Shown here piece after piece: positions 4,180 to 55,046 of a stretch of 63,171 nucleotides of DNA. The position numbers and the translations under genes were made by a program. How positions within the stretch are numbered: position 1 is the stretch's first letter; each line of letters begins with the position of its first letter. The DNA comes from Bacteroidaceae bacterium (lineage in GTDB: Bacteria; Bacteroidota; Bacteroidia; Bacteroidales; Bacteroidaceae), in the NCBI GenBank assembly GCA_017534815.1, contig JAFXVS010000026.1, positions 1 through 63,171 of the forward strand. Direction: 5' to 3'. The notes beneath the pieces were generated by a model. That model had not been told where the DNA came from and made no database searches. It saw only the letters and a list, made by a program, of their open reading frames with translations.

Positions 4180-4305
4180 TGTCTTCTACCCATCTATTCC
4201 CTCTTTTTTTAAAAATGTATAATGAGAAGGTAAACTTTTTTAGGGACAAGGCTATTTTTTAACATTTCGCGCTACGTACCAAAGGTGCTCGAGGGAGTTT
4301 TTACG

Positions 4306-4371
4306 GGAACGCGTTCCAAATATTTTTTGAACGCGTCGGAAAAAGATTTAGGACGCGTTCCAGAAAAAGCC
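4306..4371. repeat. 22-bp-period repeat array (ACGCGT cores)
   Basis: Three units start at 4306, 4328 and 4350, each with an ACGCGT core followed by an A/T-rich half. The cores lie at 4309, 4331 and 4353, exactly 22 bp apart. The first unit contains the 12-bp palindrome GGAACGCGTTCC. It is nearly identical (21 of 22 bases) to the unit at 51564-51585. Confidence 0.85.
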
Positions 4372-8908: not shown

Positions 8909-9014
8909 CGGATAATAAATGAGAATGGAAAAGAATTGCTCCAAAAGTCTTCGTTTTGCCCTTCTTTTGAGGTCGCTACACTCATAAATTCCTACTCAAA
9001 GCAACAAGCGGGTA

Positions 9015-9080
9015 GTTTCATTACGAGAAACGATGGGTTTCATTACGACTAACTGGTAGTTTCATTACGACTAACTAAAC
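9015..9080. repeat. Three 22-bp direct repeats upstream of GH97
   Basis: The 12-mer GTTTCATTACGA occurs at 9015, 9037 and 9059, exactly 22 bp apart. Units two and three also share CTAACT. The array is about 140 bp upstream of the GH97 start and just before the hairpin that follows the 1196-residue protein gene. Confidence 0.9.
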
Positions 9081-19500: not shown

Positions 19501-19521
19501 ATTATAAGAATTTTGTTTTAA

Positions 19522-19587
19522 TATAGTAAAAAATATTTTTTAGTATAGTAAAAGAAAATTTTTAGTATAGTAAAAAATAATTTATGG
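19522..19587. repeat. Three 22-bp A/T-rich repeats between GH5 and esterase
   Basis: TATAGTAAAA starts at 19522, 19544 and 19566, exactly 22 bp apart. Unit one contains the 14-bp palindrome AAAAAATATTTTTT. The last unit runs into the GH5 stop codon at 19582, and the array ends close to the esterase start. Confidence 0.9.
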
Positions 19588-26783: not shown

Positions 26784-27117
26784 CGAATATCTTACACATT
26801 ATTATATATATATTCTTTTTTTATTTTATTTTTTAAAGAACTATATGGTGGTATTTATAGGATGTTGATAGTGTTGATAAGTATGGATGATGGTTGTGTA
26901 TCAATCAGTTAGGATGTTGAAAAGTGAGGGGTAGGGTATTGATAAAAAAATGAAAAAAAATAACAACTTTTTTTGGTGGTTTGGATGTGAAGTGGGTATA
27001 TAAATTTTATTGAAAAAAGCAAAAAAAGTTATTAGAAATTATTAAAAAGTTATCAATAGGGTTATGAACAGGGTTATCAACATTTGCTCATAATCCTATT
27101 GATGTGTAAAGCAGGAT

Positions 27118-50033: not shown

Positions 50034-50984
50034 CTACTTCTTTACATGAAAAACAGCCATAATGGGTAGATGGTCGCTGACACCTCCTTGATAGACTGGA
50101 CCTAAGTAGGTGCGATGGGGTTTTTCGCCTCCGTTGGTGGGGTCTGATTCGAGCAGGAAGGGGAGGGTCAGGATGCGGGTTCGCTGATGGGATAGGGTAG
50201 TCGTGTGGGTGAGCAAATGGTCGATGGTGGACCACTCGCCTTGATACTTGTAGGTGCCGGGTTGAAGTTTGGCTGTACGGTCGATGAAGTGATGGCTGCG
50301 GGTGAGGAATTTGAGCTGTGGAGAGTTGGTTTCAGCATTGAAGTCGCCCATCACAAGGATGTTGGGGCGTTGGCGGGTGATTTGTACAGAATCGAGATGA
50401 GCCTTGAGTTGCTGACAGATGTTCATGCTCAGGCTTTGTGCCTCTCCACCTCCTCGTTTGGAAGGCAGATGAATCACATATACATCGACCGTATCGCCCC
50501 CTGTGATTGTACCTGCCACATGCAGGATGTCGCGCGTCTTGTCCTTCTTCTTCATCTTGGGTCGAATAGGTTCAGTTTCAACAGGATGGAACGTGAAAGG
50601 AGAGTAGAGTAGGGCAACGTCAATCCCACGCTCATCCAACGAGTTGGTCATGATGTAGCGATAGCCAAGTTTGGAGAGGGGAGTGCGCTGTGTGAGATAC
50701 TGCATCACAGTGTCATTCTCCACCTCACAAAGTCCTATCAGGTCAACGGGTCGCTTTTCATCGGCAGCTGCTATCACCTTGCTGATGCCCTTCAGCTTCT
50801 GAAAAAGCCTGTATTGATTCCATTTCCGTTCCCCTCCAGCACAATATTCATAGTCATCCTTCCCAGCATCATGAATCGTATCGAATGCATTCTCGATGTT
50901 GTACGACAAGACCGTGAAGGTCTGTTGCGCTCTCATCTGACAGCACATCAGCACCACAAAGATCAGCAATACGTCTCTTTTCAT
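50034..50984 (-). CDS. Secreted endonuclease/exonuclease/phosphatase-family protein
   Basis: The 316-residue protein has a signal peptide (1-19, ending MRAQ) and the EEP (DNase I-like) fold: VLSYNIENAFD with the metal-binding Asn and Glu, LIGLCEVEND, LDERGIDVALLY, VIHLPSKRGG, ILVMGDFNAET and SDHLPIMAVF with the catalytic His. Secreted members may act as nucleases for DNA scavenging or as phosphodiesterases. The substrate is unknown. It has its own promoter and is upstream of the CHASE2 operon on the same strand, separated by 141 bp. Confidence 0.92.
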   Translation of the reverse strand: MKRDVLLIFVVLMCCQMRAQQTFTVLSYNIENAFDTIHDAGKDDYEYCAGGERKWNQYRLFQKLKGISKVIAAADEKRPVDLIGLCEVENDTVMQYLTQRTPLSKLGYRYIMTNSLDERGIDVALLYSPFTFHPVETEPIRPKMKKKDKTRDILHVAGTITGGDTVDVYVIHLPSKRGGGEAQSLSMNICQQLKAHLDSVQITRQRPNILVMGDFNAETNSPQLKFLTRSHHFIDRTAKLQPGTYKYQGEWSTIDHLLTHTTTLSHQRTRILTLPFLLESDPTNGGEKPHRTYLGPVYQGGVSDHLPIMAVFHVKK

Positions 50985-51012
50985 TGATCTGCTCTTGTTT
51001 TTGACTGCATTG

Positions 51013-51044
51013 CAAAGGTATATCTTTTCTTTTATTCCTCCAAA
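51013..51044 (-). promoter_or_regulatory. Promoter of the EEP-family gene
   Basis: TTTG (51041-51044), a 20-bp spacer and TACCTTTG (51013-51020) on the minus strand, 28 bp before the start codon. This is one of the best matches in the window. Confidence 0.8.
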
Positions 51045-51156
51045 CTTTTCTTAAAAGGGAGGCAAAAAGCTACTGTTTCATATGTAAATAAAGTGTATTT
51101 TGACTAAAACAAGGCTGTAGTATAACAAGATTAAACATTTTATGCTGAAAAATAAC

Positions 51157-51164
51157 TACCTTTG
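51157..51164 (+). promoter_or_regulatory. -7 box ahead of the Crp-type remnant
   Basis: TACCTTTG, followed by TATCC, lies 29 bp before an ATG at 51193. It suggests the original promoter of the degraded regulator is still present. Confidence 0.5.
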
Positions 51165-51192
51165 TATCCGATAATCAAAAGACGATACGAAT

Positions 51193-51346
51193 ATGACACA
51201 CCAACCGAACAAACAAATTGCTCGGCCGCTGTCCACAAGTGGTTCAGATGCTCTCGCTGAAGGACATCGCTTCTTTTCTCAACGTCACGCCCACTTACCT
51301 TAGCAAAATACGCAAAGAGATTACATTTGAGAAGAAAAACGGCTGA
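51193..51346 (+). pseudogene. Remnant of a Crp/Fnr-type regulator
   Basis: In the frame read from 51197, the last 34 codons spell VVQMLSLKDIASFLNV...TYLSKIRKEIT and end at TGA 51344-51346. This matches the C-terminal helix-turn-helix of Bacteroidetes Crp/Fnr regulators (S-L-K-D-I-A-S-x-L-x-x-T-P-x-x-L-S-x-I-R-K). A stop lies just upstream in this frame, and the only nearby ATG (51193) is in another frame. The cyclic-nucleotide-type domain is missing, so most of the gene has been deleted. A promoter box and a terminator still frame it. Confidence 0.65.
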
Positions 51347-51373
51347 CATTTATCAAACTAGTTTGAGAGTAGC

Positions 51374-51436: not shown

Positions 51437-51563
51437 TGGCAAAAATAGAACGATAACACGTTAGTAATTAATAATATTAGTTAAACAAAAGACCTATAGG
51501 CATTAAGCCCCGCTACGTCGTGATGATGTGACGGGGTTGTTCGTATAATGAATTATTTTTTCT

Positions 51564-51629
51564 GGAACGCGTTCTAAATATTTTTCCTTCCCGGTGTAAA
51601 AAGTTCTGGAACGCGTCGTAGAAAATGCC
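51564..51629. repeat. 22-bp-period array, second copy of the ACGCGT element
   Basis: Units start at 51564, 51586 and 51608. The first and third have ACGCGT cores 44 bp apart (51567 and 51611), and the middle unit has lost its core. The first unit matches 4306-4327 at 21 of 22 positions. Confidence 0.8.
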
Positions 51630-51669
51630 CCTTATTTTAACAAAACAACAGTAGGCTTTGCGATACCCG

Positions 51670-51782
51670 ATTAGTGGGCTTTTGTTAAGCGTATTAGTGA
51701 GCCTTTGTTATGCGTATGAGTGGGGCATTGTCAGCGATATGCCGTTTCGTGTTCAACGATACGCCGTATCAAGGGGCACGAA
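51670..51782. repeat. Chain of 23- then 22-bp drifting repeats
   Basis: Units start at 51670, 51693 and 51716 (23 bp, ATTAGTG or ATGAGTG start and GCGT or GCGAT end). Further units start at 51739 and 51761 (22 bp, with GCCGT at 51741 and 51763), and another GCCGT is at 51785. Each unit resembles its neighbour more than distant units. No gene is visible in this stretch. Confidence 0.75.
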
Positions 51783-51799
51783 ACGCCGTTGTTTAAATT

Positions 51800-51865
51800 G
51801 CCGTCGGCAAAAGGCAAGAGAAACGTCGGCAAAAAGGTGCTTTGCCGTCGGCTCTTTTGTGGTGG
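51800..51865. repeat. 22-bp-period array with GTCGGC cores
   Basis: GTCGGC occurs at 51803, 51825 and 51847, exactly 22 bp apart. Units one and two share CGTCGGCAAAA. It directly continues the chain at 51670-51782. Confidence 0.85.
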
Positions 51866-51978
51866 GCTAATCGACAATCCTTGATGACATCTTTACTGAT
51901 ACTCATATAAATTATATTTAATAAGAATTACATGATTTTATTAAGTTCGGTTTGCAAATTTAGGTGTTTTCTATAAAT

Positions 51979-52100: not shown

Positions 52101-54995
52101 TTAGTGCGCTTCTAACCAGTTTTCACCCCATCCGCAGTCGGCATAGAGGGGGACAGAGAGTTTGATGGCGTTCTGCATCTCGTTGATGACCAGCGTCTGG
52201 AGTTGTTCCTTTTCTTCTGGCACAACGGAGAAGTTGAGTTCGTCGTGTACCTGCAGGATCATCTTGGAACGAAGACCCTCTTCACGGATGCGCTTGTCGA
52301 TGCGAATCATCGCCACCTTGATGATGTCGGCAGCCGTTCCCTGAATGGGGGCATTGATGGCATTTCTCTCTGCATAACCTCGCACCACAGCGTTGCGTGA
52401 GTTGATGTCGGGTAACTGACAACGGCGACCTAAAAGTGTCTCTGTATAGCCTAATTGACGGGCTTTTTCGATGCTCTTGTCCATGTATTCCTTCACGCCT
52501 GGATAGGTGGCAAAATAGTCGTCGATAAGCTGTCTGGCTTCTCCTCGACTCACTTCCATCCGCTCAGCCAATCCAAAGGCTGAGATGCCGTAGATGATGC
52601 CGAAATTGGCTGTTTTGGCTTTGCGACGCATCGTGCTGGTCACCTCTTCGAGGGGCACTTTGAAGATCTTGGCGGCTGTCGCCTGATGAATATCGTGTCC
52701 GCTGTTGAAGTCCTCGACCATATTCTTGTCCTGACTCAGGTGTGCCATCAGTCGCAGTTCTATCTGGCTGTAGTCGGCAGAGAAGAAGAGCTCGCCTTCG
52801 TCTGGAATGAAGGCCTTGCGCACCTCTTTCCCGTTCTCGTCACGGATAGGGATGTTCTGCAGATTAGGGTTGCTGGAAGAGAGTCGTCCTGTAGCCGTAA
52901 CCGCTTGATTGTAAGACGTGTGGATGTGTCCTGTACGAGGATTGACGAGCTGAGGTAGGGCATCAATGTAGGTGCTGAGGAGCTTCTTATAACCTCTGTA
53001 GTCGAGTATCTTCTCCACCACAGGATGCTTGCTCTTCAGGGTGAGCAGGGTGGCTTCGTCTGTGACGTATTGTCCCGTCTTCGTCTTCTTGGGTTTCGAG
53101 TCGATTTTGAGCCTGTCGAAGAGGAGTTCGCCAATCTGTTTGGGTGAGCTGATGTTCAGCTCTTGTCCAGCCACTTCGCGTATTTCCTGCTCGATGGCTT
53201 CCATCCGTTCTGTGAACACTTTTGAGGTCTCTGCCAACGATGCTTCATCGATTCTTGCTCCATTCATCTCCATTCTCGCCAACACAGGTACGAGCGGCAT
53301 TTCCACCTCGTCGAAGAGTTGCCAGAGTCCTTTCTCGTACAGTTCCTTCTCCAAGATGTTTTTCAGCTTGAGGGTCACGTCAGCATCCTCAGCCGCATAC
53401 TCATACACGTCCTTGGGATCAAGGTCGTGCATTGAGCGTTGTTTCTTTCCTGCACCAATGAGGCTATCGATATGGATGGTCTGATACTTCAGATAGACTT
53501 CTGCCAAGTAATCCATGTTGTGACGCAACTCTGGGGCAATAATATAATGTGCGATCATCGTGTCGAACATCTTCCCTCGAAGCTCGATGCCATAGTTCGC
53601 CAACACCATCATGTCGTACTTGATATTCTGTCCCACCTTGATGATTTTCTCCGACTCGTACACCTCCTTGAAGATATTAACAACTCTTAACGAATCCTCG
53701 AAGTCTTCGCCCGACCATTCTTCATGATAGGGGATGGGCACATAAAATCCTTCGCCTTCGTTCACAGAAAAGCTCAATCCGACCAATTTTGCCGACATCG
53801 CATCGACTGAAGTCGTTTCTGTATCTAAACTGACAAAATCGAAAGTCAAGATTTTTGCAGCCAAATTCTTCGCTTCTTCCTCCGAATCAACAAGTTGGTA
53901 ATTGTGAGGTGTGTTGCTCAAGTCGCTGAGATTCGAAAAAAACAAGTCACCTTGCCCCGTGGTCGGATTTACAGGCTTCTCAGAGGCTTGAGAAGAGGCA
54001 TTTTGAGTCGTTTGAGTACTCCCTCCAAAGAGGTCGCCGCTGAAGAGGTCATTCATCTGAGCTTTTCCCTTCTTCCCATTGGTTGGTGTCGAAGGGGTGG
54101 GGGAGACGGTTCCATCATTCTGATCAGCTGAAGCAAATTTGCGTTTGCTCAATGTGCGAAACTCCAATCGCTCAAAAATCTCTTTGAGGGCGATTTCATC
54201 GATGGGTTCGCGTTTGAGGCTGTTGAGGTCGAGCGTAATCGGCACATCGGTTTTGATGGCTGCCAGGAACTTCGACATCTTGATGTCCTCCACATGTTCC
54301 TCCACCTTCTTCTTCATCGCACCCTTCAGTTGGTCGATGTTGGCAAGAAGTCCTTCGATGCTGCCAAACTCATTGATGAGCTTGACTGCCGTCTTCTCAC
54401 CCACACCTGGACAACCTGGGTAGTTGTCAGACGAGTCACCCATCAATCCCAACAGGTCAATCACCTGCTTCACGTCGCTGATACCATACTTCGCCTTCAC
54501 TTCTTGCTCGCCCAAGACGTCAAAACCCCCATCAAATCGAGGTTTATACATCTTTACGTTCTTCGCCACCAACTGCCCGTAATCCTTGTCTGGGGTCATC
54601 ATATAAGTGTCGATTCCCTCGATGGATTCGCTTTGTTTGGCCAAAGTGCCGATGACATCATCAGCCTCAAAGCCTGATACCTCCAACACAGGAATGCGAT
54701 AGGCTTTCAACACATCTTTAATAATAGGGACGGCAAAACGGATGCCCTCAGGGGTTTCCTCACGCTGTGCTTTATAGTCAGGGAACGCCTCATGACGGAA
54801 TGTGGGTCCATGAGGGTCGAAAGCGACACCAATATAGTCCGGATTCTCCTTCGTGAGGATCTCTTCGAGGGTGTTGACGAAGCCCAACACCGCCGATGTA
54901 TTTTCACCTTTGCTGTTGATGCGTGGGTTTTTGATAAAGCCATAGTAGGCTCTATAAATCAATGCATAAGCATCGAGAAGGAACAATTTTGCCAT
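52101..54995 (-). CDS. polA: DNA polymerase I
   Basis: The ATG at 54995 (MAKLFLLDAYALIYRAYYGF) gives 964 residues and avoids an unusual upstream extension. The 5' nuclease domain (about 1-290) has GLMGDSSDNYPGCPGVGEKTA (quoted in part: GDSSDNYPGCPG). A low-complexity Ser/Thr/Asn linker (about 305-375) follows. The 3'-5' exonuclease domain begins FVSLDTET with an intact DxE motif. The polymerase domain has motif A SADYSQIELR, motif B RRKAKTANFGIIYG and motif C VHDEL. It joins Okazaki fragments and fills repair gaps. It is divergent from the polyprenyl synthase gene. Confidence 0.96.
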   Translation of the reverse strand: MAKLFLLDAYALIYRAYYGFIKNPRINSKGENTSAVLGFVNTLEEILTKENPDYIGVAFDPHGPTFRHEAFPDYKAQREETPEGIRFAVPIIKDVLKAYRIPVLEVSGFEADDVIGTLAKQSESIEGIDTYMMTPDKDYGQLVAKNVKMYKPRFDGGFDVLGEQEVKAKYGISDVKQVIDLLGLMGDSSDNYPGCPGVGEKTAVKLINEFGSIEGLLANIDQLKGAMKKKVEEHVEDIKMSKFLAAIKTDVPITLDLNSLKREPIDEIALKEIFERLEFRTLSKRKFASADQNDGTVSPTPSTPTNGKKGKAQMNDLFSGDLFGGSTQTTQNASSQASEKPVNPTTGQGDLFFSNLSDLSNTPHNYQLVDSEEEAKNLAAKILTFDFVSLDTETTSVDAMSAKLVGLSFSVNEGEGFYVPIPYHEEWSGEDFEDSLRVVNIFKEVYESEKIIKVGQNIKYDMMVLANYGIELRGKMFDTMIAHYIIAPELRHNMDYLAEVYLKYQTIHIDSLIGAGKKQRSMHDLDPKDVYEYAAEDADVTLKLKNILEKELYEKGLWQLFDEVEMPLVPVLARMEMNGARIDEASLAETSKVFTERMEAIEQEIREVAGQELNISSPKQIGELLFDRLKIDSKPKKTKTGQYVTDEATLLTLKSKHPVVEKILDYRGYKKLLSTYIDALPQLVNPRTGHIHTSYNQAVTATGRLSSSNPNLQNIPIRDENGKEVRKAFIPDEGELFFSADYSQIELRLMAHLSQDKNMVEDFNSGHDIHQATAAKIFKVPLEEVTSTMRRKAKTANFGIIYGISAFGLAERMEVSRGEARQLIDDYFATYPGVKEYMDKSIEKARQLGYTETLLGRRCQLPDINSRNAVVRGYAERNAINAPIQGTAADIIKVAMIRIDKRIREEGLRSKMILQVHDELNFSVVPEEKEQLQTLVINEMQNAIKLSVPLYADCGWGENWLEAH

Positions 54996-55046
54996 TTCTT
55001 TTTGGATTTTGTGTGTAAACTTACGAATTATATTTGAAAAAAGCAC

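Follow-up and report, generated by a model that had tools for sequence, protein, structure and literature searches.

The array at positions 51564–51865 of the window (the whole 63,171-nucleotide stretch of DNA analysed here) is a mosaic of short intergenic modules, which are scattered through the genome, occur in new combinations and take up different positions from species to species. Their units stay at about two helical turns in length although the words that fill them change, and one copy may have one or two whole units more than another. The periodicity described in a first-pass annotation of this DNA is confirmed, and is wider than first noted. The account which best fits these observations, albeit one that we hold only tentatively, is that the arrays are mosaic, dispersed elements made up of putative binding sites of dimer size, which would lie on the same face of the helix.

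The array and its setting

The window is contig 52 of a 94-contig, 2.31-Mb genome (G000) that is rated 75% complete, in which genes were called as longest open reading frames with no gene finder. The array lies in the gap between two genes assigned by Pfam:

50034–50984, minus strand, endonuclease/exonuclease/phosphatase-family gene
52101–55046, minus strand, DNA polymerase I gene (polA)

Every motif position given in the first-pass annotation proved correct on re-examination: ACGCGT stands at 51567 and 51611, TTAGTG at 51671 and 51694 with TGAGTG at 51717, GCCGT at 51741, 51763 and 51785 (and also at 51800 and 51844), and GTCGGC at 51803, 51825 and 51847. The identity of 51564–51865 with itself at a lag of 22 bp is 0.411 (z 6.1 against 2000 dinucleotide shuffles), a value that 0/2000 shuffles matched at any lag from 8 to 69, with lag 23 (z 4.1) second and lag 44 (z 3.1) third. 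Indeed, the top 302-bp stretch of the 63-kb window at lags 21–23 begins at 51552. A coding role for the array was considered and rejected, the 70-residue open reading frame at 51658–51870 having no Pfam match and 22 being no multiple of three. Adjoining the array is a minus-strand open reading frame of 69 residues (51140–51349), also with no Pfam match; the plus strand of 51200–51345 resembles a fragment of a regulator gene.

Modules and their mosaic arrangement

The array is made up of the following four modules:

51556–51625, plus strand, module A, three units, the outer two GAACGCGT at 51565 and 51609, 44 bp apart (recognised from dispersed copies)
51668–51737, plus strand, module F2, three non-palindromic 23-bp units ATTAGTGGGCYTTTGTTAWGCGT (TRF period 23, 82% matches)
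51735–51790, plus strand, module F3, three 22-bp units CGATAYGCCGTWTCG, quasi-palindromes (repeat search, spacing 22 and 22)
51795–51851, minus strand, module F4, three 22-bp units around GCCGWCGGC, the middle one AACGTCGGC (profile search)

Module A is an imperfect hairpin of about 70 bp, with an inverted repeat at 51558–51585/51598–51625, and its middle unit is decayed in the window array, for which reason the ACGCGT array seems to have a period of 44. The step from F3 to F4 is about 18 bp. Arrays of like build lie elsewhere in the window:

4297–4367, plus strand, further copy of module A, its three ACGCGT spaced by exactly 22 bp (genome search, sequence inspection)
9000–9068, plus strand, module F9, TAGTTTCATTACGACAAACTGA, period 22 (TRF row 9013–9076, module match)
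19516–19583, no strand assigned, A/T-rich 22-bp array, 3.1 copies of TTTTAGTATAGTAAAAAATAAT in a short intergenic gap (TRF; dyad test p 0.048)

When a 341-bp query covering the array was compared with its own whole genome, 28 matches were returned, a number that counts the query itself and takes some places twice, once per strand. Every match other than the self-match spans one part of the query only, these parts being 16–100 (A), 129–196 or 158–211 (F2, running slightly into F3), 196–251 (F3) and 261–293 (F4). The earlier claim that neighbouring units share words and distant ones do not is thus borne out, the array consisting of four separately dispersed modules. As to the accompanying idea of gradual drift, F2 seems, by eye, to grade into F3; in large part the array is a mosaic of separate modules, and a single drifting repeat was rejected as the main account since all four are found separately elsewhere.

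Across all the loci examined, 26 copies of module A, 16 of F3 and 57 of F4 are left after removal of overlaps, and F2 has three copies in the G000 sample. Further modules of like build occur in the copies, namely F5 (GAGTTAACTC), F6 (GACTCGAGTC), F7, F8, F9, F11 and a tail, and profile searches of the loci examined gave 215 non-overlapping module copies altogether. In the 698-kb G000 sample (made up of the window and 36 other stretches, together 30% of the genome) there are 31 module chains, 17 of which contain more than one module, in varying order.

The 21–23-bp period across intergenic DNA

The first-pass annotation had named the absence of any wider excess of 22-bp periodicity as the finding that would count against it. 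The excess is strong in the 698-kb sample and in three relatives. In 53 kb of strictly masked intergenic DNA of G000, identity is in excess at lag 21 (z 12.3) and lag 22 (z 13.5), with z of 2.5 at lag 20 and 3.9 at lag 23; lags 7 (z 12.6) and 12 (z 10.8) are raised too. Under a looser mask, which admits the coding period of three and leaves lag 22 unaffected, the lag-22 z is 9.3 in G000, 7.2 in G015, 7.5 in G006 and 6.4 in G009. G009 has no DNA match to the window array and yet has the lag-22 excess, such that the spacing is shared without the sequence.

Rows reported by TRF, which may overlap and in which 9 of 76 tested units have a shorter inner period, concur. At periods 21/22/23 there are 16/16/3 in G000, 5/12/5 in G015, 5/5/4 in G006 and 8/5/11 in G009, that is 35, 22, 14 and 24 rows in 80, 48, 44 and 62 kb of intergenic DNA respectively; at the neighbouring periods there are 0, 1, 0 and 0 rows (period 20) and 2, 1, 0 and 2 (period 24). 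Four genomes of other Bacteroidales families gave 2, 3, 0 and 0 rows of period 21–23 in 33, 20, 22 and 19 kb. In other words, three further genomes of the genus show the period and four genomes of other families barely do.

Intergenic tandem arrays of 7 bp are also common (32, 22, 17 and 43 TRF rows in G000, G015, G006 and G009). As these feed lags 7, 14 and 21, it is lag 22 and the palindrome tests described below that bear the argument. The 7-bp arrays, one of which is at 27049–27082 of the window, are a separate class from the 22-bp arrays, and some have CCCTAAA-like words. A 41-bp array with 5.4 copies (TTGTCACGCTGACAAACTC...) was seen at L042:2256–2476, 41–42 bp being about twice 21; the PgRS element of Porphyromonas gingivalis likewise has 41-nt repeats (PMC4596501).

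Spacing independent of the repeated word

The preference for two turns extends to words of quite different sequence. Among identical 8-bp palindromes lying 12–60 bp apart, the share at 21–23 bp is 14/22 in G000, 9/18 in G015, 1/4 in G006 and 3/6 in G009, with 0 such pairs in shuffles of the same four genomes; the same scan gave 1/9 pairs at 21–23 bp in four other Bacteroidales families together, and no pairs in 50 kb of E. coli. Within the family, pairs of AGTTAACT at 14–38 bp occur in 25 of 399 genomes, and among the 75 sites listed 53 are at 22 bp, 19 at 23, 2 at 21 and 1 at 16 (74/75 at 21–23). Pairs of ACTCGAGT in the same range occur in 15 of the 399, with 37 of the 41 sites listed at 22 bp, 2 at 21, 1 at 23 and 1 at 24 (40/41 at 21–23). 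Sites within one array are non-independent, making nominal p values for these spacings only indicative, and the fixed cores used in the pattern searches make the linker diversity found there partly a matter of ascertainment. One site, G000:C21:3012–3041, is identical in sequence and coordinates to G270:C18:3012–3041 in another genus, and is probably one contig binned in both assemblies. In G015, three CGAACATATGTTC, a word equal to the SOS box of Bacillus, stand at 22-bp spacing at L208:1706–1765 and at L216:3200–3260.

In this regard, the consensus unit is dyad-symmetric at p<0.05 in 18/67 arrays of period 21–23, as against 3/129 at periods 9–20. Dyad symmetry is therefore common and not general, most units being not clearly palindromic. 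Of the two causes proposed in the first-pass annotation, a copying process with a fixed 22-bp step and proteins binding at two-turn spacing, the second has support from dimer-like, palindromic sites two turns apart in part of the families; many families are not palindromic. The register can be long: at L061 in G006, about 18 consecutive 22-bp rows run, by eye, with no indel through five word families. In a phase test on eight regions, strictly defined dyad centres share a common register in five or six (0/300 shuffles); with relaxed centres there is support in L092 only, at period 22, and the window is not significant. At the window locus itself, an unbroken 22-bp register through all four modules is not supported, its three dyad centres giving an R of 0.65 that 5% of shuffles attain under one definition and 27% under another.

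The same observations bear on an improbable alternative, in which the lattice would be produced by copying that is blind to sequence, either fold-back (hairpin) synthesis or template switching, whose geometry would place two dyad axes some 11 bp from each other and so build palindromes of any sequence into a 22-bp lattice. Palindrome centres in G000 are indeed in excess at lag 11 (8 against 1.1) and lag 22 (12 against 1.2), and modules A, F5 and F6 are predicted to form long, imperfect hairpins (fold z −4.5 to −7.5). Moreover, a control palindrome, TCAATTGA, which is a reversed word and not one picked from the arrays, also prefers 22–24 bp: it occurs in 26 of the 399 genomes, and among the 40 sites listed 13 are at 22 bp, 5 at 23 and 4 at 24, with the other 18 scattered (18/40 at 21–23). 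For this preference of the control, a sequence-blind mechanism is as good an explanation as many proteins would be. Such copying does not, however, predict the excess of palindrome centres in G000 at 35 bp (9 against 0.7), which is as strong as that at 22, and many arrays are not palindromic at all. We also know of no enzyme that makes such a two-turn step, which counts against it.

Switched cores and predicted folding

Modules F5 and F6, the repeated words of which are AGTTAACT and ACTCGAGT, align over 60 columns. Their linkers are 0.63 identical, against a column-permuted mean of 0.28 and maximum of 0.48 (0/2000 permutations reach the observed value), while their cores are 0.49 identical and differ in all three units, with 0 hybrids of mixed cores among 12 copies. 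Within each of the two families, cores are 0.95–0.98 and linkers 0.74–0.79 identical. The simplest account would be a changed recognition word at the same putative sites; this is favoured over the copying of cores between units, since such copying would have had to end precisely on the core boundaries on three occasions.

That the arrays might act as transcribed RNA, multi-hairpin elements serving as terminators, stability elements or small RNAs, is a reading to which we give little probability. It draws on the strong predicted folds of A, F5 and F6, and on seven pairs of the F5/F6 alignment in which both partners have changed. The folds, however, score about alike on both strands (−4.6 and −4.5 for A); F3 and F4 are moderate (z about −3), and F7, F8 and F2 are weak and the tail has none, these four folding little better than shuffles. 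Wobble pairs in module A are not clearly one-sided (UG 12 against CA 7 in three variable pairs), although F4 (31/11) and F7 (50/29) lean to one strand. The wobble evidence is thus mixed, and an RNA role is neither favoured nor dismissed by it. A known RNA family was rejected, Rfam giving 0 matches at gathering score in the window, and the arrays have no bias to gene ends.

Turnover and position

Comparison of relatives, which the first-pass annotation had put forward as a check for the gain and loss of units, does reveal such changes. Between G006 and G058, which are close relatives, the difference at an orthologous locus amounts to one 22-bp unit of the array; a second copy in G058 has 44 bp missing. 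Gap lengths peak at 21–22 bp: among 390 gaps of at least 6 bp in pairwise alignments of 22 copies, 61 are of 22 bp and 26 of 21 bp, and 101/390 fall within 1 bp of a multiple of 22, compared with 13.6% expected if lengths were uniform, the pairs being non-independent. One larger difference, at the left end of the same array (L229 against L329), was put by eye at about 71 bp, which no whole number of 22-bp units makes up.

Array positions are lineage-specific. For the arrays at L027 and L050, the flanking genes match in the six relatives tested (at one or other flank, and for the L050 flank in G011 with weak matches only), and 0/6 show an array match at the orthologous flank; G015, G051, G011 and G022 have their module matches on other contigs, and G016 and G057 have none. 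At the polA locus, compared also by eye in 14 loci, an open reading frame begins within 100 bp of the polA stop in 23/30 relatives' loci, which led us to reject the array as a conserved regulatory feature of polA. In G057, G015 and G022 another gene lies at 122 bp, and in G000 about 1.1 kb, with the array in it, separates the polA stop from the start of the endonuclease gene. By eye, two relatives have different arrays at the same intergenic place 3′ of the endonuclease gene (L308 and L310), one with CGGTGTGACTCAGACCG at 24 bp inside an inverted repeat and the other with ACGTGGGGCACGTCGGT at 23 bp.

With respect to neighbouring genes, 37 of 56 placed loci are co-directional, 11 divergent and 8 convergent, as against 112, 42 and 34 kb of intergenic DNA of each kind. 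The arrays track intergenic length and not gene orientation, and a terminator or promoter role was rejected on position, there being no bias to promoters or gene ends.

These features are also those of selfish or neutral mosaic minisatellites with no bound protein, which would arise by slippage and template switching, be homogenised in register and be copied in the manner of MITEs or BIMEs. This possibility, somewhat unlikely in our estimation, accommodates the dependence of location on intergenic length, the species-specific positions together with the species-specific 1.1-kb insert at the polA locus, and indels of unit size. Alone, however, it leaves unexplained why unrelated words share a 21–23-bp spacing, and why cores are kept or switched in concert while linkers drift.

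Beyond the family

A search for TTTGCCGNCGGCAAA-N7-TTTGCCG in 84,980 species genomes returned 99 stretches. Among the 80 listed, 56 are in one Treponema metagenome-assembled genome (MAG), 21 belong to rumen Bacteroidales of the same kind as G000, and 3 are single, chance-like hits in other phyla. In the Treponema MAG, the F4 core and spacing recur in arrays of about 22-bp units with overall dyad symmetry, including one of 291 bp with at least 86 matches (both strands counted, in the best 40 of 189 candidates); the one other genome of that genus examined has no such array. Transfer, convergence or mis-binning could each account for this.

A phage or plasmid origin of the window array was rejected, since comparison with 50,697 phage records and 72,556 plasmid records gave no match to it. 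The broader idea that the arrays are dispersed remnants of phage or plasmid operators or iterons has in our view a very slight probability. The F4 pattern was found in none of the viral contigs scanned, and dispersed mosaics are no plasmid or phage feature. In its favour, the same geometry occurs at a viral contig (L371), where AGTTAACT at 23-bp spacing has a Cro/C1-type helix–turn–helix gene on one side and, on the other, a gene for a phage transcriptional regulator; this region is 66% identical to the immunity repressor region of Geobacillus phage GBSV1. Two further viral contigs (L435 and L436) have three AGTTAACT at 22-bp spacing next to genes for a DnaG-type primase. Only L371, one of the six viral loci with neighbours scanned, is at a regulator gene. 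The spacing preference in viral contigs is the weaker, with 37/136 pairs of AGTTAACT and 15/47 of ACTCGAGT at 21–23 bp among the matches listed, some of these counts being small samples.

A working model and its implications

On the reading that we tentatively prefer, namely that of same-face binding sites, short modules, usually of three units at 21–23 bp, would be combined side by side in differing orders, each unit being a site of dimer size. The two-turn spacing would set adjacent sites on the same face of the helix, and the arrays would be bound cooperatively by sequence-specific DNA-binding proteins, each family having its own putative binders. Units would be gained or lost in register through slippage or through recombination with one another, and the modules may have spread as passive passengers of a putative mobile process. 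The phage regulator genes flanking L371 provide a precedent for this array geometry as an operator. Against this account stand the finding that only 18 of 67 consensus units pass the dyad test, most being not clearly palindromic, the spacing preference of the control palindrome, the weak preference in viral contigs, the single regulator gene among the six viral loci, the difference of about 71 bp, the lack of bias to promoters or gene ends and a phase coherence that, with relaxed centres, is weak or absent in most of the eight regions.

A more general statement, to which we attach rather less confidence than to that account, is that two-turn arrays extend across at least one family, and perhaps beyond it if the Treponema MAG is a guide, in which any word may be set at 21–23 bp and cores are replaced concertedly in all units while spacing and linkers persist. 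Such a system would reflect either a large, fast-diversifying family of binders with one docking geometry or copying in two-turn steps. If proteins set the spacing, the arrays would list the site words used by DNA-binding proteins that diversify rapidly in abundant bacteria of the gut and rumen, and a change in specificity could be tested directly on the core-switched pair F5/F6; if copying sets it, a two-turn mutational step would be something new. In either case, the arrays would account for some of the repetitive DNA between genes at which assemblies break, and might be used as strain markers. Failing both, they would still be a wide, uncatalogued class of mosaic minisatellite.

Comparison with known elements

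The first-pass annotation knew of no described element of this type, which is too strong, since a similar kind is on record in the same bacterial order. The BrickBuilt elements (with PgRS/MITE464) are minisatellite-containing MITEs of P. gingivalis (Klein et al. 2015, PMC4596501), described as always intergenic, with 23-nt tandem repeats, at 19 loci in one genome; repeats of 22, 23 and 41 nt are also noted there in strain W83. In the literature covered, largely outside subscription journals, no such arrays are described in this group besides BrickBuilt and its citations. The likeness includes intergenic location, dispersal and a unit number that varies between copies, and dispersed, intergenic tandem repeats of about 23 nt are what is found here (periods 21–23). 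BrickBuilt elements, however, are described there as having one repeat word per family, a leader, a tail and IS5-like terminal inverted repeats, whereas the present arrays have many unrelated words at one spacing, combined as mosaics. The terminal repeat GAGACCTTTGCA, allowing up to two mismatches, gives four matches in the window, compared with 6.66 expected by chance; none flanks the array, the nearest being at 51011–51022, and no inverted repeat brackets the array at this locus. From the sequence of this one locus, where the terminal repeats fail, membership of BrickBuilt is not supported. By eye, a short inverted repeat TGTGAGTTCGATATAAGGA...ATCGAACTCACA lies at L311, about 1,050 bp past the polA stop, and is close to the terminal repeat of P. 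gingivalis MITE239 as given in Table 2 of the same source (PMC4596501).

A second parallel is with BIMEs, built of REP palindromes associated with RAYT transposases (Nunvar et al. 2010, PMC2817692). BIMEs are intergenic mosaics of palindromic units, in many copies and species-specific, to which several proteins are reported to bind. Mosaics of this kind are present between genes here too, the units being palindromic in part of the families only. BIMEs alternate single REPs, unlike the arrays here with their three 22-bp units. Moreover, the RAYT domain Y1_Tnp (PF01797) has 0 matches in the array-rich genomes G000 (75% complete), G011 (73%) and G015 (98%), so that a REP/RAYT origin is not supported; it is matched in 24/41 genomes, including the array-bearing G024 and G003. 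On this test REP/BIME membership is likewise not supported.

Tandem phage operators and plasmid iterons consist of two or three dimer sites that share one face of the helix, at a distance of about two turns; identical palindromic sites at same-face spacing are found in the arrays as well. Such operators and iterons are at one regulatory place, whereas the present arrays lie between many genes with no bias to promoters. By analogy, the arrays may best be likened to a BIME or a minisatellite-MITE that is built of putative same-face dimer sites.
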